DNA from: Polytrichum commune
Lineage: Eukaryota; Streptophyta; Polytrichopsida; Polytrichales; Polytrichaceae
Length of the DNA: 64,000 bases
Assembly (NCBI GenBank): GCA_950295325.1
Contig: OX485805.1
Span: 47,640,758 to 47,704,757 of the forward strand
Reading direction: 5' to 3'
Part shown: in pieces, positions 1-50,364 of the stretch
Layout: every line of letters begins with the position of its first letter
Numbering within the stretch: position 1 is the first letter of the stretch
The notes under the pieces: generated by a model
Told to the model about the DNA's origin: nothing
Database searches by the model: none
What the model saw: the letters and a program-made list of their open reading frames with translations, nothing else
Made by a program: the position numbers and the translations under genes

Positions 1-3000
1 AGTCATCAGAGCTACCGCCAAGGACTTCGTTCATGGAGGCATTGAGAATGAGCTCGTCAATGTGGCTTTCGTTCTCCTCACCCAAATTAAAAACTGGACT
101 CAACTGGTCGTACGATGAATCCCGTTTCGTACCTCGGGAAAAAGTATGAGCTTGTGATCCAGAATCAGTAGTCGGGGTTGGGGAAACAAGAGTTTTACCT
201 TCTGGCTCAGAATGGGGGTTCATCTTCTTTTTCCCCTTCATGGTAGTCTTCTCCAATGATTTTTGAAGTTTTTCCATCTCTTTCTGTGCGGCTTTCTCCT
301 CTGCTTCCTTTACTCTAAGCGCCTTCTTCCTATCCTCTTCTAGACGTCGGGATAGGGCCTTTGCCCTCTCATGCTCGTCTTCTATGCCCTGTAAGTCAAT
401 CATCTCAACACCAGATTCTCCAACTGCCTCCCTTGACTTCCTAAGTTCAGTTTCAAAGGAAGGAGTAAAACTAGGAGCACAGTCAAGGTACCAACCACCT
501 CCAGTGAGATGTGAGGTGGACCATGTACGCTGTTGATTTGCTGAGAACATGCACGTGGAGTTAGACTTGTCAAGCCATGCTGAGAGGAATATAGGGAGAT
601 CTTCTTTTGTTATTGCTCCTTTTGCAAGAAGCTCGTACTTGAAATACCTGCGGGAAAGACACAGCTCATCATTAAATACCTTGCAATTGATATAGCTGCC
701 ATATTAAAAACCAAAACACTATGCCAAATATAAGATCTCTAGTAGGAAAAGGAGAGGAAGATAACTCTTCGCACAATTATGTAAGTACCGTTAATTGTAA
801 CTTCATATCAGATTACCCTTAGAACAAGCATATATAACCTCATATCATATTACCCTTGTAACAAACATATCCAAGCTTATATCAGATGACCCTTATAACA
901 AACATATCTAACCTTATATCATAGTAATAGTATATGAAGCCTATCTAAGCTTATATCATATCAGCCTATTACCTTACAGTTCAAACTAACTTTATATGAG
1001 ATTAACCATAAAATAAACCTATCTAACCTTATATCAGATTACCCTTATAACGCACAACCAACTAAGCTTATATCAGATTATAACACGCAGTTCTAACCTC
1101 ATTTCAGATTACACTTATAACACAAATTTCTAACCTCATATCAGATTGACCCTACAACACATATATAACTTCACATCACATTACTAATGAAACATACATT
1201 TCTAACCTCATATCAGATTGCCCTTATAACCCAAATATCTAGAAATGCAGGTGGCAGAGTTTGAATACCAGAAAATCTGTCTCGGGGCCGAGACACTCAA
1301 ACTCGGCACTACTAAGCTTATAACAAATTGACCTTATAACACACATATCTAACCTTATATTAGATTACACTTATAACAAGCAAATGTAACCTCACATCAA
1401 ATTGACCTTGTATCAAGCATATCTAAACCTCACATCATATTACACTTATAACATACAAATCTAACCTCACAACAACTTGACCTTGTATCAAGCATATCTA
1501 AACCTCACATCATATTACACTTAAAACATACAAATATAACCTCATATCAGATTGACCTTAATACAAGCATATCTAGACCTCAGATTTCACTAACTAAGCT
1601 TATCTCATATTTCATTACCTAAGCTTATCTCAGAATTCACTAACCAAGCTTATACCAGACTACCCTAACTAAGCTTATATCAGATGTCACTAACTAAGCT
1701 TATCTCAAATTTCATTACCTAAGCTTATCTCAGATTTCACTAACCAAGCTTATACCAGACTACCATAACTAAGTTTATATCAGATTTCACTAACTAAGCT
1801 TATATCAGATGTCACTAACTAAGCTTATATCAGATTACCCTCACATCATATTACACTTATAACACACAAATCTAACCTCATATCGGATTGACCTTAATAC
1901 AAGCATATCTAGAAATCACATCAGGATGCACTTATAACACACATATCTAGCCTCATATCAGAGTACACTTATAACAAGTATAGGTAGATATCAATAGCAA
2001 CTATGATTGTAGGTAGTAGAGTTTGAATACCAGAAAATGTGTCTCGGGACCGAGACACTCAAACTAGGCCCTGGAATTTCAGAAATTTCTAGGCTTATAT
2101 GAAACTAGGCCCTAACTAAGCTTATATAAAGTTACCCTAACTAAGCTTATATCAGACTCCCCTAACTAAGATTATATCAGATTTCATTAACTACGCTTAT
2201 CTCAAAATTCACTAACCAAGCTTATACCAGACTACCCTAACTAAGCTTATATCAGATGTCTTTAACAAAGCTTATATCGGATATCACTAACTAAGCTTAT
2301 ATCAGATTTCACAAGCTAAGCTTATATGAGATTACCCTAACTAAGATTATATCAGATTACCCTAACTAAGCTTATATCAGATTACCCTAACTAAGCTTAT
2401 ATCAGATTACCCTAACTAAGCTTATATCAGATTACCATAACTAAGCTTATATCAGATTACCCTAACTAAGCTTATATCAGATTTCACTAACTAAGATTAT
2501 ATCAGATTTCACTAAGAAAGCTTACATTAGATTACCCTAATACCCAACATTGCTAACTAACCTTATATGAGATTAAACTTATATCAACCATATATAACCT
2601 CATATCAAATTTCACATATAACCCTTAATACAACCATATGTAGAGCACACACCAGATTTCACATATAACACAAATTTCTAACCTCATATCAGATTACCCT
2701 AATACCTCAAAGTGCATACTAACATCATATGAGAGTACACTTATAACACACATATAGAACTGTAGTATGAAAGGAGAGAACTCACCGAAAGATAACTCTT
2801 CGGACAATCAAGTCTGTCCCGTTAAATCCCTCAAAATCGTGAGTTTTGTTAAAGGCCTCCTGCCCTCGGAAGAATGTGGGAAACGCGATGTCCCATAATT
2901 TCATTCTACAGTCCTCGATGTATGCAACCAAGGTCAAGGGCTCACTGGGTATTGCAAAGTTGATAGCAAGTCTGTCTTGGCGCAAAGTGTCTTCAAATAT

Positions 3001-4747
3001 AATGGAAGCCTGATCGGATATCTGTATATACAGAGAGTGAACATGAACAAGAATTTGAGCAACATCGATTCATATATTGAAATAACCGTGAAACCAAGAG
3101 AAAGACCAATTAATGTAAGGGATCAAATCAAGTAACACCGAACTAAAGGGCACATAGGGGATTATGTACTCACTCCTTCCCAAAAACATGCCTTGGCTAG
3201 GAATGCAGGCAATTTGTCCTCATTGGTGGGCTTGGTCGGCAGTTTGCGAGCCTCACGTGTTGATGAAGAGGAATTGAAATATTCCAACCATTTGATTTTA
3301 GAAGCGGGTGATGCTTTTGCAGTAGCGATCAACTGCAATTTCTCTAAGTTGAGCTCGGGTGCAATTGAGTTAAGAGTATAGTGACGCGCAATCTGTGAAC
3401 CATAGAGCAATATATTAAGATCATGGAGATTAATGAATTACTTGAAAAATGTAGAATGGGTTTTAAAGTAGTGGACATACCTCCCAAAGCCATCCATCTG
3501 TCAAATTTGGGTTTGCCACACAAACTAGTTTTGACATTTTCTTATGAAGTGCCTTGGCTCTCTTTGAAGCAGCGACCTTCATGGCGGCTGCTTTTTCAGC
3601 AGCAGACACCTCTCCATCCGTTTGCTCAAGAAGTTGACGAACACCCTCATCTGCAGCAAGTGCCAGTTCGTGCTGGAAAGGGATTACCATAGTTAGTTTG
3701 TAATCAAACAACTGCGACAAAAAGGTGTTATGAAAGCACATAAAGAAACAAAAACATTTGAACATCAATTATAAGTACCAAATGTTGAAAGGGATTAGAT
3801 ATAAGAGTAATCACATCATCAAGCATCAACATCACATCATACCTGGAAGATGAAGCTCGTGAATACATGTAGATTTAATGAATACCACGTCTTCTTTGAA
3901 GTTTGAGATTTCTTGCACCTTTTAATGTCAGAGGGAGTCAAAATATCTTGGTACTGTTCGAGCGGCATAAGTCCATACTTCTGCACCCTAAATAGAGTGT
4001 GAACTGTGTTTATCTTCACGTGAGAGTCTTCTGTATGTCTACAAGTAACAATCATATATTAAAGACAAGAACAACATAATATATGTACATAGATGAAAAC
4101 CTTAAATAATGGACTTAGAAAACTTACTTGTTGATATTATGCATAACTTGCATAACAACACCAATTTTTCCCTTGGTGTCAAGGAGGATGCTATCCACCA
4201 AAAAATGCCAGGACTCTTCTGTTTTGTGAAGTCGTTCAATATGGTTCAACCAAGCCTGCCGCCTATGGTTCCCGTCACAAACAAAGAACATCAAATTCGT
4301 AAAACCGGCTAACTCTGGAACGGACAGAAGAAAGGAGTTGAATTGTTCATTTTTGGCACTCCAAATAGGACCCCACGATGCCTTATCAGCCTCAGTAACC
4401 TCATGTGTTTTTCCTTCTTCATTTGTTATTGTCACATAAAATACCGAGGCACCCTCTCTATACCCATGCACAAACTCCTGCTCCAATTTAGCAAGATCAC
4501 TTGGGAGAGTTGGCCTCACCATAGGCATGGCCAACATTCTGCACAAGGGAATAGGGAACCTTGAGGAACTCAGGGGTTGGACTCTCAGTCGAGAAATCCT
4601 GGCAACATAATTAAGTTTCTGTCGGGTCCTGATATCATCTTCATCCCCTTCATATGGATCTCTATCTCCAAGCCCCTCTTCATCCTCATCTTGACCCTCT
4701 TCAGAATAATCTAGAGAAAACAGAGAAAGAGCAGGAACATCCTCCAT
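1..4747 (-). CDS. ParB-like domain gene with coiled-coil tail (3' end outside window)
   Basis: Six exons fit GT-AG rules with consistent phase: 4747-4128, 4038-3843, 3672-3481, 3392-3174, 3021-2786 and 647-<1, giving about 703 codons without a stop. The chosen ATG (4747) is the first in frame after an acceptor at 4763; a leader exon is possible. Exon 1 has an acidic N-terminus and then a segment resembling the ParB/sulfiredoxin fold, with a VCDGNHRRQAW motif in the place of the ParB GERR motif, followed by a helical stretch (HNINK...VHTLFRVQKYG) placed as in ParB after that motif. Exon 3 has a basic K/A-rich helix. The last exon has a Lys/Glu-rich coiled coil and a low-complexity acidic region. 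The intact frame contrasts with the decayed genes nearby. ParB proteins bind palindromic sites and hydrolyse CTP; function here is inferred only from the motif. The first visible intron and the 5' flank are palindrome-bearing satellite. Confidence 0.6.
700..2770. repeat. AT-rich satellite filling an intron of the ParB-like gene
   Basis: Degenerate tandem repeats of two kinds. One is a roughly 37-bp unit built on ACTTATAACACACATATC plus TAACCTCATATCAGATT. The other is a 25-bp unit (CTAACTAAGCTTATATCAG plus ATTACC), clearest at 2360-2500, which carries a HindIII site. Two palindromes of the GTGTCTCGG/CCGAGACAC type lie at 1279-1297 (variant centre) and 2039-2058. The array sits between exons at 647 and 2786, so the intron appears to have grown from the same repeat that flanks the gene. 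Confidence 0.8.
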
Positions 4748-4809
4748 TGCGTTGTTCTCTACCTGCAAAATATATGTACTAGTTAATCGAGGAGAAAACA
4801 TGAGCTTAG

Positions 4810-7800
4810 CTGACATCAGAGTTCAAAAATTAGTTATAAGTGTATGTGGTATTGTTTGAACATCAAAAAACATGTCTCGGGACCGAGACACTAGTACTCG
4901 GCAGAAATATTCAACTCCAGAAATACCTATCCTTACATCGGATCACCCTCTTAGCTCACATTGCAAATTTACAATATATCAGATTACACTTATATCAGAT
5001 TACACTCATATCAGGTTACACTTATATCAGATTACACTTATAGCCCCTAAAGTCATAGTGAGGTGGTAGAGTTTGATAGTGTCAAAATAGTGTCTCGGGA
5101 CCGAGACACTAGAAATCAACTCTAAAATTCAATTTCAGAACTACCTATCCTTACACTTATATCAGAGTACACTTACATCAGATTACACTTATAGCCCCAG
5201 AAGTCATAGTGAGGTGGTAGAGTTTGATAGTGTAAAATAGTGTCTCGGGACCGAGACACTAGAAATCAAATCTAAAATTCAATTTCAAACCTACCTATCC
5301 TTACAGTTACATCAGAGTACACACATATCAAATTACACTTATAACCCATAAACTCAAAGTGAGGTGGAAGAGTTTGATAGTCTCAAATAATGTCTCGGGA
5401 CCGAGACACTTGAAATCAACTCTTAAATTCAATTTTAGAACTACCTACCCTTACACTTATATCAGAGTACACTTACATCAGATTACACTTATAGCCCCTA
5501 AAGCCATAGTGATGTGGTAGAGTTTGGTAGTCTCAAATAGTGTCTCGGGACCGAGACACTTGAAATCAACTCTTAAATTCAATTTCAGAACTACCTACCC
5601 TTACACTTATATGAGAGTACACTTACATCAGATTACACTTATAGCCCCTAAAGCCTTAGTGATGTGGTAGAGTTTGGTAGTCTCAAATAGTGTCTCGGGA
5701 CCGAGACACTAGAAATCAACTCTAAAATTCAATTTCAGAACTACCTACCCTTACACTTATATCAGAGTACACTTACATCATATTACACTTATAGCCCCTA
5801 AAGCCATAGTGATGTGGTAGAGTTTGGTAGTCTCAAATAGTGTCTCGGGACCGAGACACTAGAAATCAACTCTAAAATTCAATTTCAAACCTACCTATCC
5901 TTACACTTACATCAGATTACACTTATAGCCCCTAAAGCCATAGTGATGTGGTAGAGTGTGATAGTGTCAAATAGTGTCTCGGGACCGAGACACTAGAAAT
6001 CAACTCTAAAATTCAATTTCAAACCTACCTATCCTTACAGTTATATCACAGTATACACATATCAGATTACACTTATAACCCATAAACTCAAAGTGAGGTG
6101 GTAGAGTTTGATAGTCTCAAATAATGTCTCGGGACCGAGACTATAAAAATCGGCAGTAATATTCAACTTCATAACTACCTTTCGTTACACTTTTATTGAT
6201 TACACATATCATAGTACACTTATAGCACACATATCTAATAGAAACAGACCCGAGAAAGTCATATTCATACCTAGTAACCACTGTCAATTCACAGTAAAGG
6301 TGGTAGAGTTTGATATCAGATTGACCATACAAACACACAAATCTAACCTCATATCATATTACCCTTATATCAATCCTATCTAACGTTATATCAGATTACC
6401 GTTATAACTCACAAATCTAGCCTCATTTCGGTTTACCCTTATATCAAACATATCTATATTCATTTCTAACCTTATATAATACACAAATCTAACCTCTTAT
6501 CAGGTTACACTTGTTACCCACATATCTAACCACAGATCAAAGTACCTTTATGACACCCATATTCAACCTCATATCAGATTGACCTTATAACAAGCGAATA
6601 TAACCTCACATCAAATTATACTTATAACACACATATCTAACCTCATATCACACACATATCTAACCCGATATCAGATAACAGATATAGCCCAGATATTTAA
6701 TCTCACATCAGATTACAGTGATATCACCCATATTCAATCCCAGTTCAGATAGACCTTACAACACAGATATCTAACCCTAGATCAGATTACACTTCTAACA
6801 AACATTTCTAACATCATATCAGAGTACACTTATAACAAGCATATCTAGATATCAATATCTACTATGATTGTAGGTAGTAGAGTTTGAATACCAGAAAATG
6901 TGTCTCGGGACCGAGACACTCAAACTCGGCCCTGGAAAATCAGAAATTTCTAAGCTTAAATCAAATTACCCTTATACCCACAATTGCAAACTAACCTCAT
7001 ATCAGATTGCACTTGTAACCCACATATCTAACCTCACATCAGTTTGACCTTAATACTAGCATATCTAGACCTCACATCAGATTTCACCTATAACACAAAT
7101 TTCTAACCTCATGTCAGATTACACTTGTATCAAGCATATCTAGACCTCACATCAGATTTCACTTTGAACACACATATGTAGTCTCATATCAAGATACCCT
7201 TATACCCAGTATGTCTAGATTTCAATATCAAAATATCATTGTAGGGTTTACAGTTTGAATACTAGAAAATGTGTCTCGGGACCGAGACACTCAAACTCGG
7301 CCCTGGAATTTCAGAATTTTCTAAGCTTAAATCAGATTACCCTTATACCCACAATTGCAAACTAACCTCATATCAGATTGCACTTGTAACCCACATATCT
7401 AACCTCACATCAGTTTGACCTTAATACTTGCATATCTAGACCTCACATCAGATTTCACCTATAATACAAATTTCTAACCTCATATGAGATTATACTTGTA
7501 TCAAGCATATCTAGACCTCACATCAGATTTCACTTTGAACACACATATGAAGTCTCATATCAGAGTACCCTTATACCCAATATACCTAGATTTCAATATC
7601 AAATATCATTGTAGGGTTTAGAGTTTGAATACCAGAAAATGTGTCTCGGGACCGAGACACTCAAACTCGGCCTTGGAATTTCAGAATTTTCTAAGCTTAA
7701 ATCAGATTACCCTTATACCCACAATTGCAAACTAACCTCATATCAGATTGCACTTGTAACCCACATATCTAACCTCACATCAGTTTGACCTTAATACTTG

Positions 7801-8186
7801 CATATCTAGACCTCACATCAGATTTCACTTTGAACACACATATGAAGTCTCATATCAGAGTACCCTTATACCCAATATATCTAGATTTCAATATCAAATA
7901 TCATTGTAGGGTTTAGAGTTTGAATACCAGAAAATGTGTCTCGGGACCGAGACACTCAAACTCGGCCCTAACTGAGCTTATATCAGGTTATCCGAACTAA
8001 GCTTATATCAAACTACCCTAACTAACCTTATATCAGATTTAACTTACTTAGCTTACATCAGATTACCCTAATACCCAACATAGCTAACTAACCTTATATC
8101 AGATTGCACTTGTAACCCAAATATCTAACCTCATATCAGTTTGACCTTAATACTAGCATATCTAGACCTCACATCGGATTACATTT
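4810..8186. repeat. Palindrome-bearing satellite, 150-bp and longer higher-order units
   Basis: Between about 5090 and 6124 the unit is 150 bp (palindromes at 5090, 5240, 5390, 5540, 5690, 5840, then 5974 and 6124). From 6900 to 7940 the unit is about 370 bp, then 296 bp. Each unit has one copy of GTGTCTCGGGACCGAGACAC, with 9-bp arms and a 2-bp centre, preceded by a GTAGAGTTTGA-like stretch. The AT-rich remainder is the same TATCAGATTACACTTATA type as in the intron of the neighbouring gene. The array lies between the minus-strand ParB-like gene and the plus-strand transposase copy 1. No gene is seen in it. Confidence 0.9.
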
Positions 8187-9860
8187 TGTCACCAAAAAGC
8201 CTTCACCCTTCAATTTTGTCCTAGCCCGAATGGAAAAGTTTATAATGACATGTAGAGATTTCTCTCTTTGTAACACAATGTATGATTCCAATCTATCGTT
8301 GGAATATACACAACTTAGCCAAGTCTATACTATGTCTTCTTACACTCCTTAATCTCGGGTAATGTCACATCCTTGTACTTCTCTAAAGTCCACCCAGCCG
8401 CTTTGGCCACGCATGCCTTCAAAGATATCCCTCTTGTGAAACGAGTCCTTGCCGTCGACTCCACACTACTACATGAGTTCTCGTTTATTGATTCCATGAA
8501 TTACACAAGTTTAAGTATTGATAAATACTTGTCACTTATTGTAGTTTTCTCCTCACGCTTCAACCACTATATTGGTTTAATAAACTAATGGTTATCTCTA
8601 ATGGAACCATGCAAACTTCTTTTGTTCCCCTAGACTTTACTAGCTAATAGTGTAACTTTCCCATTACTTCTCGGAATGTCCTGAAATTTTATCTGTAACT
8701 AGAGAGACAAAGCAAAAAACATCTCACCAATTTGTGAGCCTATCCCATTTTCTGTCCGACAGTTATGACCATTTTAGTGTGTCGGTCTACCCAGATGTCA
8801 GATTGTCATAACTTCCTCTCACAGGCTCTAAAGAACTTCAAATTTTGGGAGCAATCACAAAAACTAATTGTTTATGAACCCCTGAAATTTCAAACTATTT
8901 TCATTTTCTGCCAAAACGTTATGGCCTTTTTAATCTGCAACTCTTGAAAACACTTCAGAATAATATATCTCCTTCTCATCTACTTGGAATGACTTGAAAT
9001 TTGTACCTTAACTAGGAAACCTAAGAACAAAGCATCCTTCAAAATTTCATGCGTTTCCAAGCCTCTGTCTAGGAGTTATGCCCATTTCAGCTTGAAAATG
9101 TAGGCGAAGTTCAGAATGTCATAACTGCTGCTCTAGTACTCCAAACATCCTCAGATTTTGACCATGTTCATATAAACAAGTTGTTTACTAACCCTCTAAA
9201 TTTCAACGAAGTATCTTCTTTTGCTCGGAAGTTATGCCCCTTACAACCTAGACTACTCAAGAAATACCCAAGAAATATGAACTCAAGTACTACAACTTGA
9301 AGCCATAAAATATCTTAAAATTATTCACACCAAAACTAATTCTAACAAAAGGTCAAGCCCTCTTCAAGGCCAACTAGCCTTGGCTCTCCAACTAAAAACT
9401 AAGCACACACATGTGCTCCAATCTTGCTTCCAACACACCCACACTTATAACACGTGGGGTGGCTTGGAGCACGAAGGGAAGAGAGGATGAGTGAGGGAAG
9501 AATGAGGGATTATATAGTGAGTTTGAGGGGGTGAGCACCCTCAAGGCTCACGATAAGCCCTTGAGATCTCCTCTTACTTTGTAGGCTCTAATCCTATCTC
9601 CTAAGCCTTCCTCCCTCAAATGATCAACAAGGATCCTAATTCAAACATTTAACTAACCTTGGTTTTCTACCTACCACACTTTACCAAGGTTTGTCCTTCT
9701 CCTACTTAAATTCACTCCACAAAAGCCTAATGCTTCAAACTAAGCTTTCTTCAAGCTTCTTTCTTTTTATATTTTTGTGAATAATCATAAATCACCAAAA
9801 TACCACTTGTAATGTTTTACAAGTGTTAACAACCAATGTGGGCATCAATTTGGGCTCACA
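8187..9860 (-). mobile_element. Solo LTR 1 (family A)
   Basis: The element has TG...CA ends: TGTCACC at 8187 and GGGCTCACA at 9860, so on its own strand it starts TGTGAGCCCAAA. It is flanked by CATTT (8182-8186) and CACTT (9861-9865), a 5-bp target duplication with one change; the original satellite reads CACTT here. On the minus strand a TATATAA promoter box lies near 9515. Length is 1,674 bp. No gag, protease, reverse transcriptase or integrase is present, so it is a solo LTR. It contains a diverged duplication of about 310 bp (near 8675-8940 and 8985-9240) and a conserved small open frame. Confidence 0.9.
8330..8497 (-). CDS. Conserved small open reading frame inside LTR family A
   Basis: A 55-codon frame with its ATG at 8497 and stop at 8330. 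Its core, SVESTARTR then RGISLKACVAKAAGWTLEK, recurs in the same place in the LTRs at 15.8-29.5 kb, 25.1-26.7 kb (broken there) and 57.9-60.0 kb. The frame lies near the 3' end of the LTR, after the TATA box, so an LTR transcript would carry it. The peptide is basic with one Trp and one Cys. I recognise no domain. It may be a real LTR-encoded peptide or a fragment captured from a longer gene. Confidence 0.45.
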   Translation of the reverse strand: MESINENSCSSVESTARTRFTRGISLKACVAKAAGWTLEKYKDVTLPEIKECKKT

Positions 9861-10100
9861 CACTTATAACACAAATTCCTAACCTCATATTTGATTACAC
9901 TTGTATCAAGCATATCTAGACCTCACATCAGATTTCACTTCAAACACACATGTGTAGTCTCATATCAGAGTACCCTTATACCAAGTAAATCTAGATTTCA
10001 ATATCAAATATCATTGTAGGGTTTAGAGTTTGAATACCAGAAAATGTGTCTTGGGACCGAGACACTCAAACTCGGCCCTGGAAAATCAGAATTTTCTAAG
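9861..10100. repeat. Continuation of palindrome satellite up to transposase copy 1
   Basis: This is the same AT-rich satellite as before the LTR insertion. The last palindrome, at about 10049-10068, has one arm mutated (TTGGGACCGAGACAC). The array ends about 10100, a few bases before the first open frame of transposase copy 1. Confidence 0.8.
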
Positions 10101-10105
10101 CTTAT

Positions 10106-17858: not shown

Positions 17859-18059
17859 GAGGCACATAAGTTTTAATACAAGTGTTGAAAAATACTTGTG
17901 TAACTTACCATTACCTCCTCTTCCACAAGTCCCTCATAAATCCTTCCCCAACTCATCTCATAATGCAATTACTAAACCAACTAGCTTGACCCAACTAGCC
18001 TAATCATCTAGCCTAACTAATTAGTCTAATTAATTATCCTCCACTCTACCCAGCAATTA

Positions 18060-18861
18060 GGCCTATCTGGCCTTCGCCTAAAACCAACAGCTAAATCTAA
18101 TGGCCTTAGCCTCAAACCAGCGGTTGAATGTAACTGGCCTTAGCCTCGAACCAGCAGCTAAATGTAACTGGCCTTAGCCTTAAACCAGCAGTTGAATGTA
18201 ACTGGCCTTAGCCTCAAGCCAACAACTAAATCTAATGGCCTTAGCCTTGAACCAGCAGTTGAATGTAACTGGCCTTAGCCTCGAACCAGCAGCTAAATCT
18301 AATGGCCTTAGCCTTGAACCAACAGCTAAATGTAACTAGCCTTAGCCTTAAACCAACAGTTGAATGTAACTGGCCTTAGCCTCAAGCCAGCAGCTAAATC
18401 TAATGGCCTTAGCCTTGAACCAGCAGTTGAATGTAACTAGCCTTCGCCCTTAAACCAACAGCTAAATGTAACTAGCCTTAGCCTTAAACCAGCAGTTGAA
18501 TGTAACTGGCCTTAGCCTCTAAAACCAGCAGCTAAATCTAATGGCCTTAGCCTTAAACCAGCAGCTAAATGTAACTGGCCTTCGCCCTTAAACCAGCAGC
18601 TGAATGAAATTGGCCTTAGCCACAAGCCAGCAGCTAAATCTAATGGCCTTTGCCTTGAACCAGCAGGTGAATGTAACTGGCCTCAGCCTTTAAACCAACA
18701 ACTAAATCTAATGGCCTTTGCCTTGAACCAGCAGTTGAATGTAACTGGCCTCAGCCTTTAAACCAGCAACTAAATGTAACTGGCCTTCACCCTTAAACCA
18801 GCAGCTGAATGTAACTGGCCTCAGCCTTTAAACCAACAACCAAATGTAACTGGCCTTAGCC
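18060..18861. repeat. 34-bp minisatellite within LTR 4
   Basis: About 24 copies of a 34-bp unit (AACCAGCAGTTGAATGTAAC plus TGGCCTTAGCCTCA). It is cut by the piggyBac element and resumes at 25037-25098, then again at 26696-26770 on the other side of LTR 2. It has many TTAA and TCAA sites, consistent with the piggyBac target. Confidence 0.9.
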
Positions 18862-32265: not shown

Positions 32266-35200
32266 TTGCAGCGGATTTTCAACGTCCGACATCTCATGAA
32301 ATTGAGCTCTTCTAGGGCTACGAGGTTGCTTCATCCAATAGGGAACTCTTCCAAAGCCTCACATTCAAACATGCGCAATATTTTTAGTTTCGTCAAGTTG
32401 CCAAACCTTTCCGGTATCGTTTTCAATGCCCGTCATCTTACGAAATGGAGCTCCTCCAGGGCTACGAGGTTGCTTACTCCAACAGGGAACTCCTCCAAAG
32501 CCTCGCATTCAGACATGTACAACATTTTCAGTTTCGTCAAGTTGCCAAAGCTTTCCGGGATCCTTTTCAATGCCCGACATGTCCCAAAACTTAGATCCTC
32601 CAACTCTACAAGGTTGCTTACTCCAACAGGGAACTCTTCCAAAACCTCGCATTTAGACATGTACAACAGTTTCAGTTTCGTCAAGTTCCCAAAGCTTTCC
32701 GAAATCGTTTTGAATGCTTGACATTTCCCAAAATGGAGCTCCTCCAGGGCTACGAGGTTGCTTACTCCAACAGGGAACTCCTCCAAAGCCTCACATTCAA
32801 ACATGCGCAGCATTTTCAGTTTTATCAAGTTCCCAAAGCCTTGCGGTATTGATCTTAAATATGGACATTGGGAGAAAAGTAACTTTTCCAAGGCTGACAG
32901 GTTGGCTAATTGAATACAGTTGCTCTCGAGGTCTTCGCATCTGAAGAAGTCTAGCTCTTCTAAGGTGATGAGTTTATCAAGTCCAATGAGGAATTCATCC
33001 AATTGCTCGCAATTTGAGAATGATAATTCCCGGATCTGCATCATTTTCAAGTGTTCACAAGAAATTGATCCCAACAAATTGCAATTGGACATCGCAAGGT
33101 ATCGCAAATGTTGGAGATTTTCTAGGGTATTAATGAAATACTTCCCAATGAATTGGTTTGTCAACATTGTTGAGTCAATATGTTTGGGTGAGAATTGGAT
33201 GTCCAACCATTTAAGATTGGGTGATTTCTTCACAATAGCAGAAAGCAGGTTAACATTTTCACAAAATCGGACTTGGAGTAGACAAAGCTTTTCCATCGAT
33301 TTTATCTCGACATCTCCTTCATACATTGACTTGTTTTCCAAATTTGTAATTGATAGGCCTTGGACAAGTTCTATGCCCTACATACACAACAAAACACATG
33401 AGTTGATTTGTTTTCATCTCGAATACAATGGATTTAGAGCTATTGGCATATTATATAACTTTTGCAATTTAATAGAACTTGTCAAGAAGTTAATGAGGAA
33501 TATCAACTTGTACAAAACCCAAACTATGTACCTTTTCTTTACAACGATTGACGAATGCAGTGTAACTTATATTAAAAATTCGAGTCCCCATAAAATCCTT
33601 TTCCGTAATCAGACGACCCATCTCACGCAATTGATCATGAATGTAAAAACTTTCCCAGTCGTTCACCTTCAACAATGATTTTTCTTGAAGCCTTTTCAAG
33701 ACAATTTTGGCAACCTTGATATCACCATCCCACATTCTAAGAAATGATTCTTTTGTTGGATAAACATCAAGATATGTATCTTTACAAAAGAAACATGCTT
33801 CTTTCTAGATCATTTAGCTCATCAAAGCTTATCCTCAATGTCTTCCAAATCTTCTCATCTGAACCTCCATCATGTCTTGCCCTCAACACCCTATACAATG
33901 TTCGCTCCCATATTCTCAGTCGTGCTTCCCCTTGCATGCATTTGCCCATCACCTCCAAACTCAAAGGAAGTCCACAACATGCATCCACAATCTTTTCAAC
34001 CACATGTTTTAAATGAGGTGAACATGATTGGTTGGTCCCAAAAGCATACATTGAAAATAGCTCCATAGCTTGGTTCCTATCGAGGGTTTGCATGTCTACT
34101 TTACCACCCATGGGTACATGTTGTTCCAAGGAGTTCCAATCACGAGAACTTGCAATCAACCTACTACCGTTGACATTTTTGAACAAATCATCATGATCCA
34201 ATAGTTGTTGTAGTTGTCTTTGTTTGCCCACGTTGTCCACCACAATGAGAATTTTTTTTGTTCTTTGAATAACTTTTAAAATCTCTTGTGTCTTTATCAA
34301 TGTTTTGGATTGGGGACGTGAGTCTTGCATGCCTTTGGAGTTGTGTTGTACTTGCAATGTACAAGTTTCATCCTTCAAGTCGTACACAAAACATGTTGCA
34401 TCAAATCCCTCGGAGATGTGGTCACTCAAAGCCTTAGCCAACGTTGACTTGCCACTTCCGCCCATGCCAACAAGTCCTCGACAATCAACACTTTGAAGTT
34501 GCCTTTCCAATTGGAAAACTTTGTCTTGGACTCCAATTAATTTGGACAATTCTTTCATGTTGTCATTATTGTTGACCTACAAAATTTCCAACTTCTCAAA
34601 TTTAGTGAGTGTTATTAACATGATAGAGTTGGTGAGGCCTCTTCAATTATCCCAAATAAAATTGAAATCTAGTAAAAACCATTTATAAAGTCAACCACAC
34701 GCTTACCTTCATGGAAAATGGATTTGATGATGATCCATTAGAGACCTTTTGGGCCCTTGGAAATAAGGTTGGACGATTAGCATGTTTAAATTTGAATACA
34801 AACCATGAGTATCGGATCCAAGAGATCAAAACAAAGCATAAGTATGATAAAACTTTCCATAAGGAGCCACGTGTATCATTTGTAGCTCCTCCAACTGTAA
34901 CCACACCCTTGAGGATCGTAAGTTTTTTCAAACTTGTAAGTTTGTTGTGAATACCAAGAAATGTTGGTCTTTCCAAAGGATCGGACGACCAACAATCATG
35001 CACCATTGATCTTAATCCTTCCGAATAGGATTCTGGCAGCTTTGGTCTACTAGAATCTTCTAATATGTACTTTCGATATTTACGAAATGAACCAAGAGGC
35101 AATTTCTTTGCCGAAAGAATATCAGAACACAACATGCCAAAACTAAACACATCAGCTTTCAAAGCATCCACCTCCGATAATTCATTCGCAATCATCTCTG

Positions 35201-36268
35201 GCGCCATGTATCCACGAGTTCCTATGTATCGACCTGTGGGCACCTTCCCATAATCCTTCACTTCAACCTTTGAAATACCAAAATCAAGTAGTTTCACTTG
35301 TATGCACCCAAGATCAATCAACGTCGAATCATTTGGTAGACTCACAACAACATTACCAGGCTTTAGGTCACGATGTGCCATGCACCTTCATATCATGAAG
35401 GTAGCACATTCCATTTGCAATTTGTAACATAATGTCCAGTGCGTTTGTCTCTTCAAGAGGACATTTTTCACTTAGATATTCTGATAAGGTTTTCTTTCCA
35501 TATTCCATAACAAGTTCAAATTGGTTTTCCACCTCAAGAAAACCACAACAATAAAACTTGATGATGTTTGGATGATTCAACCCTCCCAAAATACTTGCTT
35601 CTTTCCAAAGTCGTTTTATGTCCTTGGGATCACGGATATCAAACACCTTTGTTGCAGACTCCAAACCCAACCAATCTGTCAAGAACACACAGATGTTGTT
35701 TGACCTTCCCAAAACCTTAGGTGGATTTCTTGTATATTTGGGGCGAGGATAATTGTAAGGAAAATCAATTTCGTCCAATCCACCACCTTCAACATGTTGT
35801 AGACTCCTTAGGTACTCCTTAAGGTATTGCGCAAGTTTGCAATCATCGCAATCCATGGTTGTGCATGAATCCAAAATGCTTAGAAAACCTTCCACATATT
35901 GAAGTTTGATCCTCTTTAACTGCATCGATGGATGTTGGGTAGAATGTCATATCATTCTTGATTGCAAGAATTTTTGATTCTTGAGCCTGATGGTAAAGGC
36001 AAGATATGTCACAAATTGTACGAAAACAATTTTCAAAGTCCAAAAGGAGTTCTCTGAAGCCCTCTTTGTTGGTCAGTTGTGTCACTACAACGCGACACCA
36101 ATCTTCTCTGCAACAATCTTCAATTAGCACTTTTGCTTTGTATACAATTTGATATAGATCTTCTTCAGCTTTGCGGAACACCTCGTTATGACCACTTGTG
36201 ATGCTTTGCAATGCTTGCACACCATTTTGAAAGTTGAAGAACAAATTCTCGCATTGTCTTCTATTCAA
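32266..36268 (-). pseudogene. Protein kinase-NB-ARC-LRR resistance-type gene (broken)
   Basis: In order: an N-terminal helical region (36268-35930), a kinase domain (HPNIIKFYCCGF; HRDLKPGN near 35370; LLDFGISK; GYMAPE), NB-ARC (P-loop GMGGSGKST near 34470, IVVDNVG, CCGLPLSLEV, IHDQLREMGR), then LRRs from 33376 down in 48-residue double units (FGNLTKL...LEEFPVGVSNL). Introns are likely at 34560-34710 and 33380-33532. Breaks: frameshifts near 35925, near 35380 (one extra base just before the kinase HRD) and near 33800, and stops in the LRRs near 32433 and 32360. The kinase-NB-ARC-LRR order is the PNL class described in mosses. Such proteins sense pathogen effectors; this copy is unlikely to work unless the shifts are assembly errors. 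Confidence 0.85.
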
Positions 36269-36289
36269 TACTTCGGGGGAAAGTTAGTA

Positions 36290-37500
36290 TGCGAGCGGAG
36301 AGCGGCGATTTGGAGAGCGGAGAACTCCATTTGAGACATGAATTGAGAGGGGAAATGCACCTATAACCGTGAGATTATGGGTTTAGGGTAAATCTATTTT
36401 TAGAAAATTTTATGAGTTAGGGTCTCTATTAACGTGGAAATAGAACAACATTTCCCCATTTGAAACGTTTACATATTTTTGAAACATATATATATTATAA
36501 TAAAATACAAAATTAGGGCTTACATCACTATTACGTCATAAATACAATTACCAAACTTGTGTACTATAGTACATATCACTGTAAATCAAATAAAAATTAC
36601 TATATGAAGGAAACACGAAGGAGGTATGTGAAAAGAATTCCCCACATATAGTCCACTCTATTAATGTTACACCTATAAATGTTAACCCTTTCTAATTGTT
36701 AACTTTATTCTACTCCCCACATATTGCACACTTTTAAATTTGACTCTATATATGTTAACGAATGAAATGCAACCATAACTACTCTTTGGAAAGACTACGT
36801 TTGGCTACGTTTAGTTCTAGTGACGGAAGTGTAAGAATGGAGGCACATGAGAACTTCCATTAGAAGGTACATGGAAACACGTTCATGTGGGTGTCCAAGT
36901 ATGTGGGTTTGTTGGTGCAAATTGAGAAATATTTGCAAGTTGTGCATGCCCATGATTCATACTTCACCCATGATTTCTAAACTTCATATTGAATAAAGTT
37001 TTGATTGGGTTTGCAATTTTATGAATGGTATTCTCTCACAAGGACTCTTCAAAAATGCTTATATTTATAAATGTTAAGATTTGTATATTGGTCGATAAAA
37101 TAATTTTATAATTGGTAACTGTTAACACCTTAATAAATGTTAACTATGATCGTTTCCTGAGGGTTAACATTTGAGGGTGACCATTATAGAAAGTGTTGTG
37201 TGGTGTGCAACTTAAGTATTATTGAGTATTTATGATTTAGTGAAACAAGGAGGAGGTGTGTGAGGCACCAACTTTATATTTGAATGGGTGGATGCTACAT
37301 TAGCGGTTAAGATTGTGAGAGGCATACCGTTTAGGGATACTTGAACTATACTTAAGGGCTAATCCACAAACTAAAAATATTTACAATAATAATTGAAAAA
37401 TGCAATGCGGGTTGACATTATGGGAATGAAATAAAGAAGAGCAAGTATGAGACTTGCGCCGGAAATCTAAAAGCCAAAAATAATACAATCCAATACAAAA
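36290..37500. other. Non-coding interval with inverted relative at 50.4-50.8 kb
   Basis: AT-rich, no gene. 36290-36330 has GAGCGGAGAGCGG motifs (complement of the CCGCTC motifs found elsewhere). 36690-37075 is homologous in reverse to about 50460-50740, including several GTTAAC motifs and a CAAAACTTTATTCAATAT stretch. Confidence 0.55.
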
Positions 37501-37506
37501 TGGAGT

Positions 37507-38814
37507 TCAAGGAATAAACTCATCCTCACTCTCCGAAGCACTTTGATCTATGTATCTAAGTACTCTTGGATTGTATCTCTCACGTGGACTAGAAGAGGCA
37601 CTAGAGCTATGGGAGGAGTATTTGGCATAAGCTACTGCCATATCCTCGGCATAAGAAGGAAGTCGCATGGTAGGACTAGTCGGCGAGCCGAAGTATTGAT
37701 CCATCAGACTGCACCAACAGAGGAGAAATTACGATTGTTAGAATACTTCCAATCAAATGCAACATACTCAACATTAAGTTTAAGATGACAACAAACTTAC
37801 TCACATAGATTAACTGCACCCTGTTGAGGGAGGGCATCGTCGTCGTCCTCGTCAAGGTCTACAACGTGAGTTGGATCGACCCCTAGAGACTCCGAGGTTG
37901 CGACCTGTATTGGGTGCAAAATTTCTTCGTACAATTCCTTGTCTCCCTCAAGTGCCACTATTGCCCTGTTAGTAGATTGTGCTCCAAGAACCGAGGCACC
38001 TACAAAGAGCAAAACAAATGAATTAGTAGAAGGTGATTGAATTGCCTAAGTCTAGAGGCATGGGAATGTTACACAAATTACTCATACCAGTTCCAGCAGT
38101 GAGGTCACATATAATCCCGCCTGGAGGGCTAAGGCCACTGATTAGAAGCTGGAGCAGGGACACTGCCTTCTCTTTAGGGCCCTTCCAGAATGTGTCACCG
38201 TCGTTGCGCTTGAGTGCAGTATCAGAGGTGACAATGTTGAAAAGAACGTCATCATTTGCAAGGTCAACATCTTCAAATTTGTCACTGGAAGAAATAACAA
38301 ACTCCTTGGGTGGCCTAAGCAAAGGTGTGGAGAAAGATCGAACCAACACGATTGCTTTGAATTTCAGAGTCTGGACATCAAACATAGGCCTCGAATTGTT
38401 AGCAATGTGATTGAAAGTATGAATGACTTCGAACTTGAAGAGTGGGAAATGGCTACAATTACTCACCCGCTTAGAGTTATGCATAGGGTGAGTGAGGTGT
38501 AGAGAATTAACGATGGTCCATTCCTCCTTGACCTCCAAGTTGTTGTTGTAGAGAAAGCTCAAGACCTCCTTCTTGATTTGCACACTGTCAGGATAAAATA
38601 AAAGGAGTGCGCCATCGTCGTGAAGATAGCCCTGACAAAAACCAATGGTGAACTTGATAAAGTTTTGAACCTGCTTATTCCAATTTGGAACTTGCCCCGG
38701 GAATTCAGAAACTCCTGGGACAGGCAAACCATCAAGATACTCTGCAATGACGAGGTCCACCGCAACCTTATGCAACACCTTGCCGGAGAAGAAGAATTCC
38801 CTGGATGCTCCAAC
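37507..38814 (-). CDS. Beta-class DNA methyltransferase-like gene, 5' part missing
   Basis: Exons 38814-38088, 37999-37801 and 37708-37507 join in phase to 375 codons with a stop at 37507. The order matches a beta-class N4/N6 DNA methylase: a motif-IV position (VDLVIAEYLDGL, where active enzymes have DPPY), then WKGPKEKAVSLLQLLISGLS (motif X), then the SAM-binding motif I DLTAGTGASVLGA spliced over an intron, and AIVALEGDKELYEEI. The catalytic DPPY is absent, so SAM binding looks kept and methyl transfer doubtful. A tail has VVDLDEDDDD and a Ser-rich end. A strong donor at 38466 is not needed, since the frame stays open. Upstream of the acceptor at 38815 there is only tandem repeat, so N-terminal exons are lost or far away. 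Confidence 0.6.
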
Positions 38815-38819
38815 CTAAA

Positions 38820-40478
38820 AAGAAAAAACCCGTGAACGGCATATCTCGAGAGGGTGCCGTTAACGAAAAATTTGATTTTCATTACCATATCAAGCATCCT
38901 AATATGACCATTAACCAATAATTAAATGAACGTAGCGGGTCCACCTATATGACCAACCTGAAATTGCTAACCATATTCGGTCATCCTAAACCTATTAGTG
39001 CATATCCAGGCCATATATGAGCACCAAAAAAATAAAAATAAAAGTCCCCCGAGGGGGGTGCCGTAAACGGCAACTCTCGGGGGCACCACATATTAACCTC
39101 AAAATCTTATATTTATGAGTGTATTATGCATCCTAATATGACCATTAACCAAGCTTTAAATGACCGTGACGGGTCCGAATATATAACCAACCTGAAATTT
39201 CTAGCCATATTGACTTACTCTCAACCTTAGAGTGCATAAACATGCCATATTCAAGCACCAAAAAAATAAATAAAAAAACCCCCGAGGGGGGTGCCGTTAA
39301 CGGCACCTCTCGGGGGCACCACATTATAAACTCAAAATCTTATATTTATGAGTATATTATGCATCCTTATATGACCTTCAACCAAGACCAACATCAACTT
39401 AAGGGGGTCCGAGTATATGACCCACCTGTTATTTCTGGCCATATTGACTTACCCTCAACTTTATAGTGCATAAACAGGCCATTTTCAAGCACCAAAAAAA
39501 AAAAAAAAAAAACCCCAAAGGGGGTGCCGTTAATGGCACCCCTCGGGGGCACCACATTATAACCTCAAAATCTGATATTTATGAGTATATTATGCATCCT
39601 TATATGACCTTCAACCAAGACCAAAATCAACTTAAGGGGGTCCGAGTATATGACCCACCTGCAATTTCTGGCCATATTGACTTAGCCTCAACCTTAGAGT
39701 GCATAAACAAGCCATTTTGAAGCACCAACAAAAAAAAAAAACCCCCAAGGGGGGTGCCGTTAACGGCACCCCTCAGGGGCACCACATTACAAACTCAAAA
39801 TCTGATATTTATGAGTATATTGTGCATCCTTATATGACCTTCAACCAAGACCAAAATCAACTTAAGGGGGTCCGAATATATGACCAACGAGCAATTTCTA
39901 GCCATATTGACTTACCCTCAACCTTAGAGTGCATAAACAGGCCATTTTCAAGCACCAAAAAAAAAAAAAAAAACCCCCAAAGGGGGTGCCGTTAACGGCA
40001 CCCCTCGGGGGCACCACATTATAACCTCAAAATCTGATATTTATGAGTATATTATAGATCCTTATATGACCTTCAACCAAGACCAAAATCAACTTAAGGG
40101 AGTCCGAGTATATGACCCACCTAAAATTTCTAGCCATATTGACTCATCCTCACCCTTACAGTGTGTAGACAGGCCATTTTCAAGCACCAAAAGAATAAAA
40201 AATAAAAACCCCCGAGGGGGGTGCCGTTAACGGCACCTCTCGGGGGCACCACATTACAACCTCAAAATCTGATATTTATGAGTATATTATGCATCCTTAT
40301 ATGACCTTCAACCAAGACCAAAATCAACTTAAGGGGGTCCGAATATATGACCAACGAGCAATTTCTAGCCATATTGACTTACCCTCAACCTTAGAGTGCA
40401 TAAACAGGCCATTTTCAAGCACCAAAAAGATTAAAAAAAAGACCCCCAAAGGGGGTGCCATTAACGGCACCCCTCGGG
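38820..40478. repeat. 233-bp tandem repeat with a large palindrome
   Basis: About seven units with periods of 232-235 bp, marked by GTGCCGTTAACGGCAC near 39055 (variant), 39289, 39523, 39755, 39987, 40220 and 40455. Around this 16-bp perfect palindrome are outer arms CCCCCGAG and CTCGGGGG, so nearly 38 bp is self-complementary. Each unit also has an A-run and a TATGACC...TATTGACTTACCCTCA stretch. The array begins in the 5' intron region of the methyltransferase-like gene and ends abruptly inside the coding frame of transposase copy 2. Open frames in the units are not conserved in phase. Confidence 0.95.
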
Positions 40479-43400
40479 TGACGAGGTCAGTCCCACCAAG
40501 CCCCCGCCTCAAGTTATAGTTGGTGGGGACGCTCCTAAAGTATATCCTTTGTCGCAAGATACTGTTAGCATAGTACCATTATTAAAACAACTTGCAGCAA
40601 TGCCGGGAAAAAAAAACATTCTTAAAAAAATAGACTACTCGGTGATTAGACACGAGAGGGTAGAGTACCTTCCTGCTCTGTTCGATGGTGCTGTCATCTT
40701 CGAGTTGCCACCCGTTGGTTACACGGCCGCACGGTCACAGGCCAAGTCTATGCAGGGAATGGACAAGCGTTACGATGGCCATGTGTGGACTAAGACCATC
40801 ACCACTAACATCACAAACGACTTTGGTTTGTCCTTCCGTTCTTCCTCCTGCGTTGGACACCTGCGTTGCAAGAACAAGGAGTGCGAATATCTGATCCGCC
40901 GACCTCGTATTTTCGAAGTCAACGAGACAAAGTTTGAAGGTTGTACCCTCCAAGCCTTTGTAGTGGATCAAGCACCCCCAACTGACTCTACGCTTGTTTG
41001 CAAGGTGTGTAAAGAACCCCCGACATGTATTGCTACATGTGGGGCTAAGATTTATTATGTTGCTGGCAAAATCAACCATACAAGAGCGTGTATCCACCTT
41101 GGAATTCACGATCACCCAGTCAAGGTGGGCGACTACAGAGACACTAAGGCTGAGATCAGTGGCCTAATTGAAGAACAGATCGAGAAGACTCCCCAGGCTA
41201 CCAGGAGTGCGGTTGTGTTGGAGGCTAGCAAAGTTCTAATTGGCAGTTATCTCCTTCAACCCGATGACGCGCCAACAAAGAAGCTTTCTCTTGAGGAATT
41301 TGTTCCAGTGTTCGACCGGTGCAAGGACATGGCTTCCCCAAACATCCGCAACAAGGTCATGAGCTTCCGTTTCCTCAGAAGGTATGGTGTCATGGACTCT
41401 ATCACCAAACTCCGTGGAATCAGTTTATGGGCATTTGTGCAGGAGAACAAATTCCCAGGTCAAGGGGCAGATCTTGACAAGGTTTTTGTCTTTAAGATGT
41501 CGGAAGTCGGGCCTGGTAGTGGGGTAGACTTGGTGAAGCGTATGCAGCCCGGCGAAGATCTGGAGAATGCTTGGATTATGTTCGACCATGTGAAACGGGT
41601 GAGACAGTGGACCACAATGGCATGCCACGTGTATGACTCCACGTATTGTCGTGTCATGACCATTGCAAGCTGTGACATGCAATCGGAGGACTGTGATGCC
41701 CAGATCGTTTTCTGGAAGAATCTCAATGCTGTGATGGAGAGGAATGGCGTTGTCGATACCAACTTCAAGGGTTTCATGGCCAACAGCGCCCAGGCCAATT
41801 GGAATGCAGTTCGGGTCATATATGGCAACGGGAAGAAGGAGGACCGCATGGATGACCGGGAAAGAACCTGTCAGTTTCACTGGACCCAATCTATGGTTAA
41901 GTATACCGAGAAATACATCCCCGAAGAACTCTGGGAGCAACACAAGAAGATGTGCCACCAATATAGGATCGCCATGACCATGGACGAAGCGGAGAACCTG
42001 TACCACGGGCTACGTGCATGGTGGGTATCCGCCGGGGTAGTGACAGAGAAGGCACTTGACAAACTCGAGCTCTGGCTTGCATTCTGGCACTTCCGTTATC
42101 GCCAATGGGGAGGCTTCATGACCGGGGTATGTTCTCCCAAAACTTGTTGTTTTTTTTTCTTTCTTTTCACTCTAATATGAAACAACTCTTCTCCAATTTC
42201 TAATTGCTTACACTATGTACACGCAGAAATTTACAGTAGAAGAACTAGCAGAAATGCCTTCATGTAATCTCGCCGAATCAATACACAACAAGTGGCTTCA
42301 ATCGTCTGGAAACAGCGGCGGCGACCTCTATGTTGCTACAGTGGACGACTTTGTTCGAGGCTTCCTTCAGGTTGTCAATTACTACCAGTTCCTGAAAGGT
42401 GATGTTGGCGGTATAGGCCCTACAAAGAAAGAGCTCAAGCTAAGGTTGGCAGAGCGTAGGGCGAAGCAAACGGGTAATCCTTTAGTCCTCGAAGACCCCA
42501 TGATGGACATGCCTGGAGCAGAAGAGTTCTGTACCCGGGTGCCTTGTATGGCTGGGGAAGAGGTGTTCAGGTCCACGAAGCGCAAAGCAGATCTACCTCT
42601 TGGAGCAGAAGAGGAGTCGCACAGACCTGATAAGGTCAACTTCTCACATCCCCGTGCTTCTAGTAGGGCTGTCCGGACTCGTTCCACTGACATGCCCATA
42701 ATTATTGAAGAGGAAGATTCCAATGTCCCGGAAGTTGCACCCCCGGCGCCACATGCGGACGATATCGTCCCGTCCCCCATCCCCGTGGGACGGATCAACC
42801 ACGTCACTGCCGTCGAGGAGACTAGGGTGAACGTGAAGGAGTGGCACATCGCTCGGTTGCCAAAGACTTCTGCCAAATGTTGTTGGGCACAGAGAGCCGT
42901 CACCAAAAAGAAGTGTACTGAGAGAATCGTAAGGGGTGCAAAATCAACCCCTGCCCCTACGTACACCGGTCTATGGCACAGCACTAGGAGAAATGTGAAA
43001 GAGACCACAGAGTTTTTCTTCTGCTCAGATGATATCCATAGGTGCGTTAAGGGTAGCAGACGCAAATGGGTTGTTCAATACTCTGCGGAACAGGAGAGGC
43101 CAAGCATTCCGGATGTTTGGCCAGTGAAACTTGGGACTAACCTCAAGCAATGTGAGATCCTGGCCCTCGAGGCGGCCGGATTCCAACTGCCGCAGAAAGT
43201 GCCAGTCTCACCCAGAAGGCTCTTTTCCACTGCACCATCTCCGGCAAATTTAGACTCCGTGCCGGTGCCAGCAGATGCGGACATGTATCCTGGGAAGAAA
43301 GAAGGGAAGCTCGTTAAGCGCACCGCAACCCGTCCAAACCCACAGCAGCGGTTATCCATGGGCTCTACGGACTCCCTCAAAGCTCAACTCCGCTCGGTGA

Positions 43401-43711
43401 CGATGATTCCTCACCCTGGCCATGGCTGCATCATTGCGCTAGACTCGATGACGCCACCCGACGTGACACAATACCACATCACCATCAGTTCCCTCCCGGG
43501 TTGCACCTGCCCTGCATTCAAGAAGACAATGACCAACTTTCGAGGGCGGAGTCAATTCTCGTATTGCAAGCATGTTTACTATATTTTTTTAAAGGTCTGC
43601 CATCGCAATCCTGATGTAGACCTTTTCATCCACGCGCCAACCTTCAGCTTCAACGAGGTCAAAGTTATTCTCGAGAGTGGAATTTTAACTCACCCTTTAG
43701 ATCGGGCCTAG
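40478..43711 (+). CDS. MULE-like transposase gene, copy 2 (open, 5' truncated)
   Basis: Exon 1 is open from the repeat junction at 40478 to 42126, a 100-bp intron follows, and exon 2 is 42227-43711. The first in-frame ATG is at 40600. Compared with copies 1 and 3 it lacks the leader and the ELSDDSD region, which the tandem repeat replaced. It keeps a GCM/WRKY-like finger (SCVGHLRCKNKECEYL), the DDE core (VYDSTYCRVMTIASCDMQSE; FMANSAQANWNAV, Asn where the others have Asp; RTCQFHWTQSM; EMPSCNLAESIHNKW), a Pro/Asp-rich linker and a SWIM finger (GCTCPAF...YCKHVYYIF). It is the only copy without stops or frameshifts. The Asp-to-Asn change in the second motif could matter for catalysis if that Asp is the DDE residue. 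Confidence 0.75.
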
Positions 43712-50360: not shown

Positions 50361-50364
50361 AACA

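Follow-up and report, generated by a model that had tools for sequence, protein, structure and literature searches.

Transposons of the moss Polytrichum commune pair a transposase with a divergent partner gene, ParB-like at its start and methyltransferase-like at its end, and carry rows of palindromes whose sequence differs between subfamilies. Two modules of this family lie in the 64,000-nt stretch of DNA analysed here, called the window (C3:47640758-47704757 of a 407.8 Mb assembly). The subfamily-specific rows suggest an address system, made by the element itself, for recognising and regulating its own DNA. The partner could be a sequence-specific regulator like the VANC protein of Arabidopsis VANDAL elements, predicted to bind the arrays of its own subfamily, a reading to which we assign a probability of about 0.48. 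Copies are named as follows: subfamily A is module 1, subfamily B comprises module 2 and a copy on C6 (B_C6), copy C lies on C4, and D consists of loci L010 and L011.

An earlier interpretation of the window from its letters alone (the sequence-only reading) had proposed a transposon family with a transposase, a partner and palindrome arrays of its own, and was to be refuted if the two genes lay no nearer to each other than by chance. The proposal passes: pairing and arrays are both found genome-wide, and the two genes lie together well above chance. The hits scored for two transposase queries, 76 and 100, merge into at least 171 loci, those of a ParB-like exon query (150 scored) into at least 146 and those of a methyltransferase-like exon query (the best 150 of 155) into at least 128, these copy numbers being lower bounds because the searches score the best candidates only. 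Among the 146 ParB-like loci listed, 52 lie within 15 kb of a transposase and 47 of these are divergent, while random placement brings a mean of 2.4 and at most 7 that close; the corresponding figures for the 128 listed methyltransferase-like loci are 39 and 32, against a mean of 1.7 and a maximum of 5. At 15-40 kb, 10 of 13 loci of each kind are divergent, an excess that nested insertions may explain, and beyond 40 kb the divergent fraction (20 of 81 ParB-like, 15 of 75 methyltransferase-like) is near the expected quarter. Adding another ParB-like query, with 150 of its 151 places listed, enlarges the partner set to at least 328 loci, fragments included. With this set, 94 of the 171 transposases have a partner within 15 kb (82 divergent, 8 tandem, 4 convergent), where random placement gives a mean of 4.5 and at most 12. 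The other 77 may be solo or decayed, or may have partners outside the match lists.

The palindromes lie where they had been placed before, far above chance in shuffle tests of the window: GTGTCTCGGGACCGAGACAC, within 3 mismatches, occurs at 16 places between 1.2 and 10.1 kb (0 in 100 shuffles), and GTGCCGTTAACGGCAC, within 2 mismatches, at 7 places between 39.06 and 40.47 kb (shuffle mean 0.01). Both sets stand between a minus-strand gene and a plus-strand transposase, and the A-type set also occurs inside the gene. Genome-wide there are 458 exact copies of the A-type palindrome and 268 B-type places; a reversed-letter control gives 0. The exact matches listed form a positional list and no random sample. 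Among them, 93 of 100 A-type matches fall no more than 15 kb from an element locus, as do all 50 B-type matches; such zones make up 3.1% of the genome. Six of the seven A-type exceptions cluster 26-28 kb away from a transposase locus. Of 19 element regions, several from one subfamily and one being the intron array of module 2, 16 have at least four palindromes of one cluster; none of five control regions of the window reaches this number (at most 1 palindrome each), nor do shuffles (15 per region; at most 2). One of the regions with no array is L018, where part of the sequence reads N.

These palindromes are 16-22 bp long and near-perfect, and their sequence differs between subfamilies. One class has CGGNNCCG at its centre and includes A (GTCTCGGNNCCGAGAC), C (GCCTCGGATCCGAGGC), L009 (CCCACGGATCCGTGGG), L012 (ATCTCGGATCCGAGAT), L020 (TTGGCGGCACCGCCAA) and L029 (GTCTCGGATCCGAGAC), the last a relative from another record. 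The other, centred on CGTTAACG, is found in B, in D (in both loci mostly GTGTCGTTTACGGCAC, once GTGCCGTTAACGGCAC), in L017 and L021 (TGGCCGTTAACGGCCA) and in L019 (TGTGCGTTAACGCACA). The arrays occupy the spacer between the genes and, in A and B, partner introns as well. Repeat units that are otherwise unrelated share the palindrome stretch (26 bp between B and D, 24 bp between A and L029, 14 bp between A and L012). Inside the arrays the palindrome is better conserved than its flanks in eight of nine cases and equally in one, a comparison biased because members were chosen for being palindromes and one not used as evidence. A different class, TGGGTCGANCGACCCA, occurs at L005 3330-3884, at L007 1731-1902 (B_C6 numbering) and at L019 3839-4063 and 8715-8843, that is, in the gene-like stretch hosting the B_C6 insertion and on both sides of the L019 transposase core; it is perhaps a further family with arrays of its own.

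What had been taken for two kinds of partner, a ParB and a methylase, are the ends of one gene. Since module 1 and the fuller copies hold both domains, two separate partner types are rejected in favour of a single gene of about 1,040-1,100 amino acids, with an N-terminal ParB-like domain and a C-terminal N6/N4-methyltransferase-like domain. In copies C and B_C6 the ParB-like exon is followed by a helical, charged middle and then by the methyltransferase-like end, and module 1 has the same exon series, its methyltransferase part (in L008) lying left of the window. Ten exons give 1,100 amino acids in copy C, with four stops and one frame change written as X, and eight joined exons give 1,042 amino acids that read open in B_C6; the N-terminal start is fixed in neither. 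Aligned with each other, the two proteins show 32% identity in the first part (545 positions) and 31% in the last (391 positions). A ParB-like locus lies within 15 kb of 84 of the 128 listed methyltransferase-like loci, in 78 cases upstream on the same strand (median distance 2.7 kb), in 3 downstream and in 3 on the opposite strand.

Partner exons appear to be under purifying selection in most comparisons, as far as rough ratios of nonsynonymous to synonymous change (dN/dS) indicate. Thirteen comparisons were tried, of which three are saturated; dN/dS is 0.07-0.22 in 8 of the 10 that yield a ratio and otherwise 0.27 (the window copy of B against B_C6, few changes) and 0.40 (L013 against L022), values that are rough because module 1 enters many of the comparisons and dS is 1.6-2.1 in the lowest. 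Two transposase pairs give 0.10 and 0.14. Some stops in the exons of copy C (L001), two of them judged by eye against module 1, look like CAG to TAG changes, the pattern expected of deamination at methylated CHG sites. Some copies have exceptionally long frames, at L018 1072-6786 and, of 2390-2527 amino acids, in rows of a genome-wide search; at least the one in L018 stems from N runs that read as open and is no giant gene.

Which of the two element proteins reads the palindromes? The halves have separate histories: the transposases of D and B are 94% identical and their partners 33%, and among L012, L017 and L019 the transposases are 83-93% identical and the partners 35-36%. The transposase could instead be what binds the palindromes, in building transposition complexes or in autoregulation, with the partner in some other role, an alternative that we consider possible but doubtful. 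The B and D palindromes, set in otherwise unrelated repeat units, agree at 7 of 8 half-site positions if D is represented by its commonest form and at 8 of 8 if by its perfect one, so that like palindromes go with like transposases and unlike partners, which points to the transposase as reader, and L017 and L019 behave similarly (transposases 93%, partners 36%, palindromes 6 of 8 positions). However, L012 differs from both of these at all but 2 of 8 positions despite transposases 83-84% identical, which points to the partner; B and L017 share 6 of 8 positions with transposases at 52% and partners at 54%, a pair also counted for the partner; and the arrays in the partner introns of A and B are distant from the element ends. 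The pair A and L012 (7 of 8 positions, transposases 48%, partners 34%) fits neither reader. In a weak test across 8 elements, palindromes show no clear relation to partner similarity (whole partner r 0.29, P 0.09; transposase r 0.29, P 0.11), with D entered by its perfect form, N in A scored as a match and the second class of L019 omitted. Among 7 runs with 8 elements and 6 with 10, the lowest P values are 0.03 for the middle part with 10 elements, 0.05 for the same part with 8 elements and 0.04 for the methyltransferase part; they are uncorrected and therefore not taken as evidence.

Besides the B/D, L017/L019 and A/L012 pairs and the unclear correlation with partner similarity, several further observations weigh against a partner that reads its own arrays. 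L013 and L022, which belong to one subfamily, have no array in the spacer stretch fetched; they may have lost or replaced the palindrome system. (The ParB-like exon of this subfamily is about 60% identical to that of module 1.) The repeat units of A and L009 share no palindrome stretch. The ParB label itself, assigned in the sequence-only reading, found no support from any profile used. ParB_N (PF02195) has 4 hits in the assembly, all on small contigs and none at an element locus; Pfam and PDB ParB profiles do not match the partner parts scanned; phrog_1033 reaches an E-value of 0.21, in L029 only. The hhalign probability of partner against ParB is 0.2 of 100, with few sequences, and AlphaFold2 models of the ParB-like part are uninformative (predicted local distance difference test, pLDDT, 37 and 34). 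The label is a provisional one, drawn from domain order and from the motif GNHRxxAW, present in 11 of 11 rows of each of two ParB-part alignments, whose GNHRxxA we take to resemble ParB box II.

The two domains invite other accounts of the partner. It would be most improbable, in our judgement, that it acts as a true ParB clamp, loaded in a CTP-gated manner at parS-like palindromes and spreading to hold copies together or segregate them: the likeness to box II and the closeness of palindromic sites to the gene would suit such a clamp, but ParB_N is missing from the element loci and integrated elements need no segregation. Could the partner be an active methylase, of N6-adenine or N4-cytosine type, and mark element DNA at the palindromes? 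We think this unlikely. The methyltransferase fold is picked up by profiles: N6_N4_Mtase (PF01555) scores 26.9 bits with the partner end of copy C (cut-off 26.7) and 26.0, just below, in B, and phrog_3008, of phage DNA methyltransferases, gives 6.6e-8 with the copy C end. Motif II (xALExD) is mostly kept among the rows that reach it, and the S-adenosylmethionine-binding motif I is partly conserved, varying from DLTAGTG to DCTAAT. The catalytic motif of N6/N4 amino-methyltransferases is [DNS]PP[YFW]. However, none of 14 loci (13 partner loci and L029), which represent about eleven subfamilies and so are not 14 independent cases, reads DPPY at this position: the first residue is D, E, Q or V, the second I, V, L, Y or F, the third P or L and the fourth always E or D. 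Two prokaryote-like ParB-methylase frames in the same assembly retain DPPY. An active enzyme of this kind has been proposed for algal transposons, in the accessible part of PMC12477816. That the arrays have no protein reader at all, being by-products of tandem duplication or hairpins of DNA or RNA, seems a little less probable still. Many of the palindromes do sit in tandem repeats, which duplicate by themselves, but the same palindrome class recurs on different repeat units, across subfamilies and in another record, and 143 of 150 listed palindrome places are near the element family.

If the partner does bind the palindrome arrays of its own subfamily, this binding might keep the promoters and introns of the element open against host silencing, or time transposase expression, by a logic like that of VANC executed by an unrelated protein. 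The methyltransferase-like domain would serve as a binding or scaffold module, its normal role as a DNA methylase gone. Tandem duplication would remake the arrays and allow specificity to drift, and the transposase and partner halves would reassort between subfamilies. Taken together, these steps would amount to a second, independently evolved sequence-specific anti-silencing system, in which a ParB-like protein of prokaryotic derivation, its methyltransferase domain converted and catalytically altered, reads self-encoded arrays, and subfamilies separate by switches of palindrome class and reassortment of halves; this fuller proposal is tentative, and we hold it to be clearly less probable than partner binding as such. 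How a transposon escapes plant silencing without general derepression has been worked out in detail for VANC. If the proposal is true, the use of the same array logic by a protein unrelated to VANC would show self-addressing to be a general solution, add a new sequence-specific DNA-binding module and reveal what a DNA methyltransferase domain can do once domesticated and no longer of the standard type. With many subfamilies that differ in their palindromes side by side in one genome, the rules of recognition and the switches of specificity can be tested directly.

Module 1 is a 19,172-bp element of which the window holds positions 1-15011. Its left terminus (C3:47636597) is 4,160 bp left of the window and its right terminus is position 15011, followed at 15012-15020 by the 9-bp target duplication TAATGTCAA, with a one-base ambiguity. 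The ParB-like exon of the minus-strand partner (CDGNHRRQAW) lies at 4127-4822 by open reading frame, alignment and splice pattern, its 5' limit being that of the open frame with the splice site unproven. Searches with tblastn, using the joined copy C protein, place exon 2 at 3846-4040, exon 3 at 3478-3678, exon 4 at 3168-3395, exon 5 at 2785-3036 and exon 6 at 1-649, all on the minus strand, the last continuing beyond the window edge. The methyltransferase-like exons follow at L008 5614-5252 (with a stop), 5109-4837, 4738-4535 and 4428-4213. By motif scan and exon limits, two A-type palindromes (at 1277 and 2039) lie in a partner intron at 1277-2058; the intergenic array spans 4872-7955 in units of about 150 and 371 bp, and a lone palindrome at 10046-10065 is found by motif scan near the 5' end of the transposase. 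Transposase copy 1 (10883-14533, plus strand) is broken by in-frame stops at 11780-11782 and 13788-13790.

Module 2 runs 7,961 bp from terminus to terminus (36276-44236), with both ends present and no matching target duplication found in its flanks. On the minus strand are the partner's last exon (37510-37713, by tblastn), the exon with motif II (IVALEGD; 37800-38003) and the exons with motifs IV and I, with an intron inside (38086-38814). Units of 233 bp with B-type palindromes (39058-40470) fill 38887-40478, and transposase copy 2, truncated at its 5' end and with a C-terminal SWIM-like CxC...CxH, follows at 40479-43711 on the plus strand (open reading frame and alignment). The divergent layout proposed for this module, a minus-strand gene facing a plus-strand transposase, holds, but its array is not a spacer array. 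In B_C6 a 234-bp unit builds two arrays that flank the ParB-like exons, one in an intron (palindromes 7875-9417) and one in the spacer (12160-14730). Window 36276-40478 is 96.5% identical to B_C6 5090-9302 and window 40479-43698 is 85% identical to B_C6 17502-20729; the 8.2 kb of B_C6 that have no counterpart carry the ParB exons, the intergenic array and the 5' part of the transposase, so the array of module 2 is the partner's intron array, running directly into transposase coding DNA at the junction 40478/40479. Module 2 is a deleted copy and probably a chimera, the joining of two elements being suggested by the shift in identity at the junction and the missing target duplication. Pieces of a kinase, NB-ARC and LRR gene lie at 32433-36283 on the minus strand, the 5' end abutting the left terminus of module 2 at 36276; insertion or rearrangement of the module may have cut this gene. 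Together with four matches to SAM_LFY (PF01698) in the genome, three of them with E below 1e-25, these gene pieces point to a streptophyte plant.

The termini of module 1, copy C and B_C6 start with GGGG at the partner side and with GGAC at the transposase side, with GAGCGG-rich repeats immediately inside, and the elements are about 19.2, 13.5 and 16.4 kb long. Target duplications are present in three of the four copies checked, 9 bp in module 1 and copy C and 10 bp in B_C6, their limits chosen by eye from exact matches of 10-12 bp. A duplication of 8-11 bp with terminal inverted repeats, as in MULEs, is thus found in all but module 2, which lacks the duplication. Further likenesses to MULE/Mutator elements are the C-terminal CxC...CxH and, by eye, a D...D...CxxH...E-like order in the transposase. 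The MULE-like label of the sequence-only reading nevertheless drew no support from any profile used: hmmscan of the transposase copies gives no MULE match, none of 150 scored genome hits of PF10551 lies within 3 kb of any of the 171 transposase loci, and hhalign against five ordinary MULEs gives a probability of 0.1 of 100, a comparison of low power (few sequences, Neff 1.5). MULE membership by profile is therefore not supported. The SWIM profile PF04434 reaches an E-value of 0.17 in transposase copy 2, under the cut-off, and does not match the C-terminal parts of copies C, B_C6 or the third copy in the window. That third copy, of C/A type, lies at 45876-49413 on the minus strand with no partner seen inside the window, and an extra transposase-side terminus at about 45010-45060 has an orientation that does not fit it; both are remnants of further elements. 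The window also holds a piggyBac-like transposase (20137-21279, minus strand; PF13843, 1.2e-45) and long C- or G-rich minisatellites of CCGTCCGCCCCGTTCCC and its complement (16282-17597, 49966-50502, 53348-54064 and 57069-58113), on opposite strands either side of the window's middle.

Searches for close relatives elsewhere found none in phages and none in viral contigs, where 22 stretches fit the pattern and 0 were confirmed. In a collection of genome contigs one of 19 such stretches was confirmed, L029, a 4.2-kb piece of a record labelled uncultured Synechococcales cyanobacterium from desert crust. It carries the same gene with introns, a ParB-like part 39% identical to that of the window and four upstream palindrome copies, one degenerate; because of the introns and the shared gene we infer that it is DNA of a crust eukaryote contaminating a cyanobacterial record. 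Three small contigs of the moss assembly, C10, C12 and C23 (L035-L037), carry ParB or ParB-methylase frames of prokaryotic appearance and are probable bacterial or phage contamination; judged by eye, one of the frames has an insert resembling an intein.

Among known systems, prokaryotic ParB-DNA methylase fusions, two of them on these small contigs, resemble the partner in having a ParB-like N-terminus and a methylase downstream. Motif IV precedes motif I in the plant partner, the order of that fusion class. The prokaryotic proteins keep DPPY and match ParB_N; neither holds for the plant partner, which also contains introns and a long middle region. Fungal transposons, KDZ elements among them, likewise carry a gene for DNA base modification (TET/JBP), but the enzyme is another one and palindrome arrays are not seen in the accessible part of PMC12730594. 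The main text of a MULE review (PMC6446971) has no hit for ParB, moss, bryophyte or methyltransferase in a term search. A much closer match is Sola1-1_Ec32 of Ectocarpus, 21.5 kb long, in which a protein of 1,104 amino acids, ParB-like and DNA methyltransferase, stands opposite the transposase (PMC12477816, accessible part). There it is suggested that the partner binds and modifies its own transposon, similar partners are said to be reported in green and red algae, and a term search of the main text gives no hit for 'palindrom'. Since that account reports such a partner opposite a transposase, this kind of element is already known, and the earlier claim of a wholly new kind of eukaryotic element does not stand. 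By description, the moss element differs in having a streptophyte host, target duplications of 9-10 bp, a transposase that matches no Pfam profile, an altered DPPY position and palindrome arrays. A literature search, with most subscription journals outside its reach, returned no report joining ParB-methyltransferase transposons with palindrome arrays; as far as it extends, the arrays that change with subfamily, the catalytic motif altered across subfamilies, the reassorted halves and the streptophyte host are new.

The closest functional parallel, by analogy, would be the VANC system. VANC21 motifs lie within tandemly repeated DNA, both in VANC21 and VANB21 introns and in the region upstream of VANA21 (PMC5735166, accessible part). 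Moss and VANDAL elements alike have a second gene beside the transposase and lineage-specific short motifs that turn over rapidly and lie in non-coding tandem repeats, both in introns and in front of the transposase (PMC5735166 and PMC10398659, accessible parts). They differ in that the moss motifs are palindromes of 16-22 bp and the partner parts scanned, which leave aside the charged middle stretch, match neither DUF1985 nor DUF287. An anti-silencing role for the moss partner is drawn by analogy with VANC, from two unrelated proteins that may have come to use the same arrangement of self-encoded sites.

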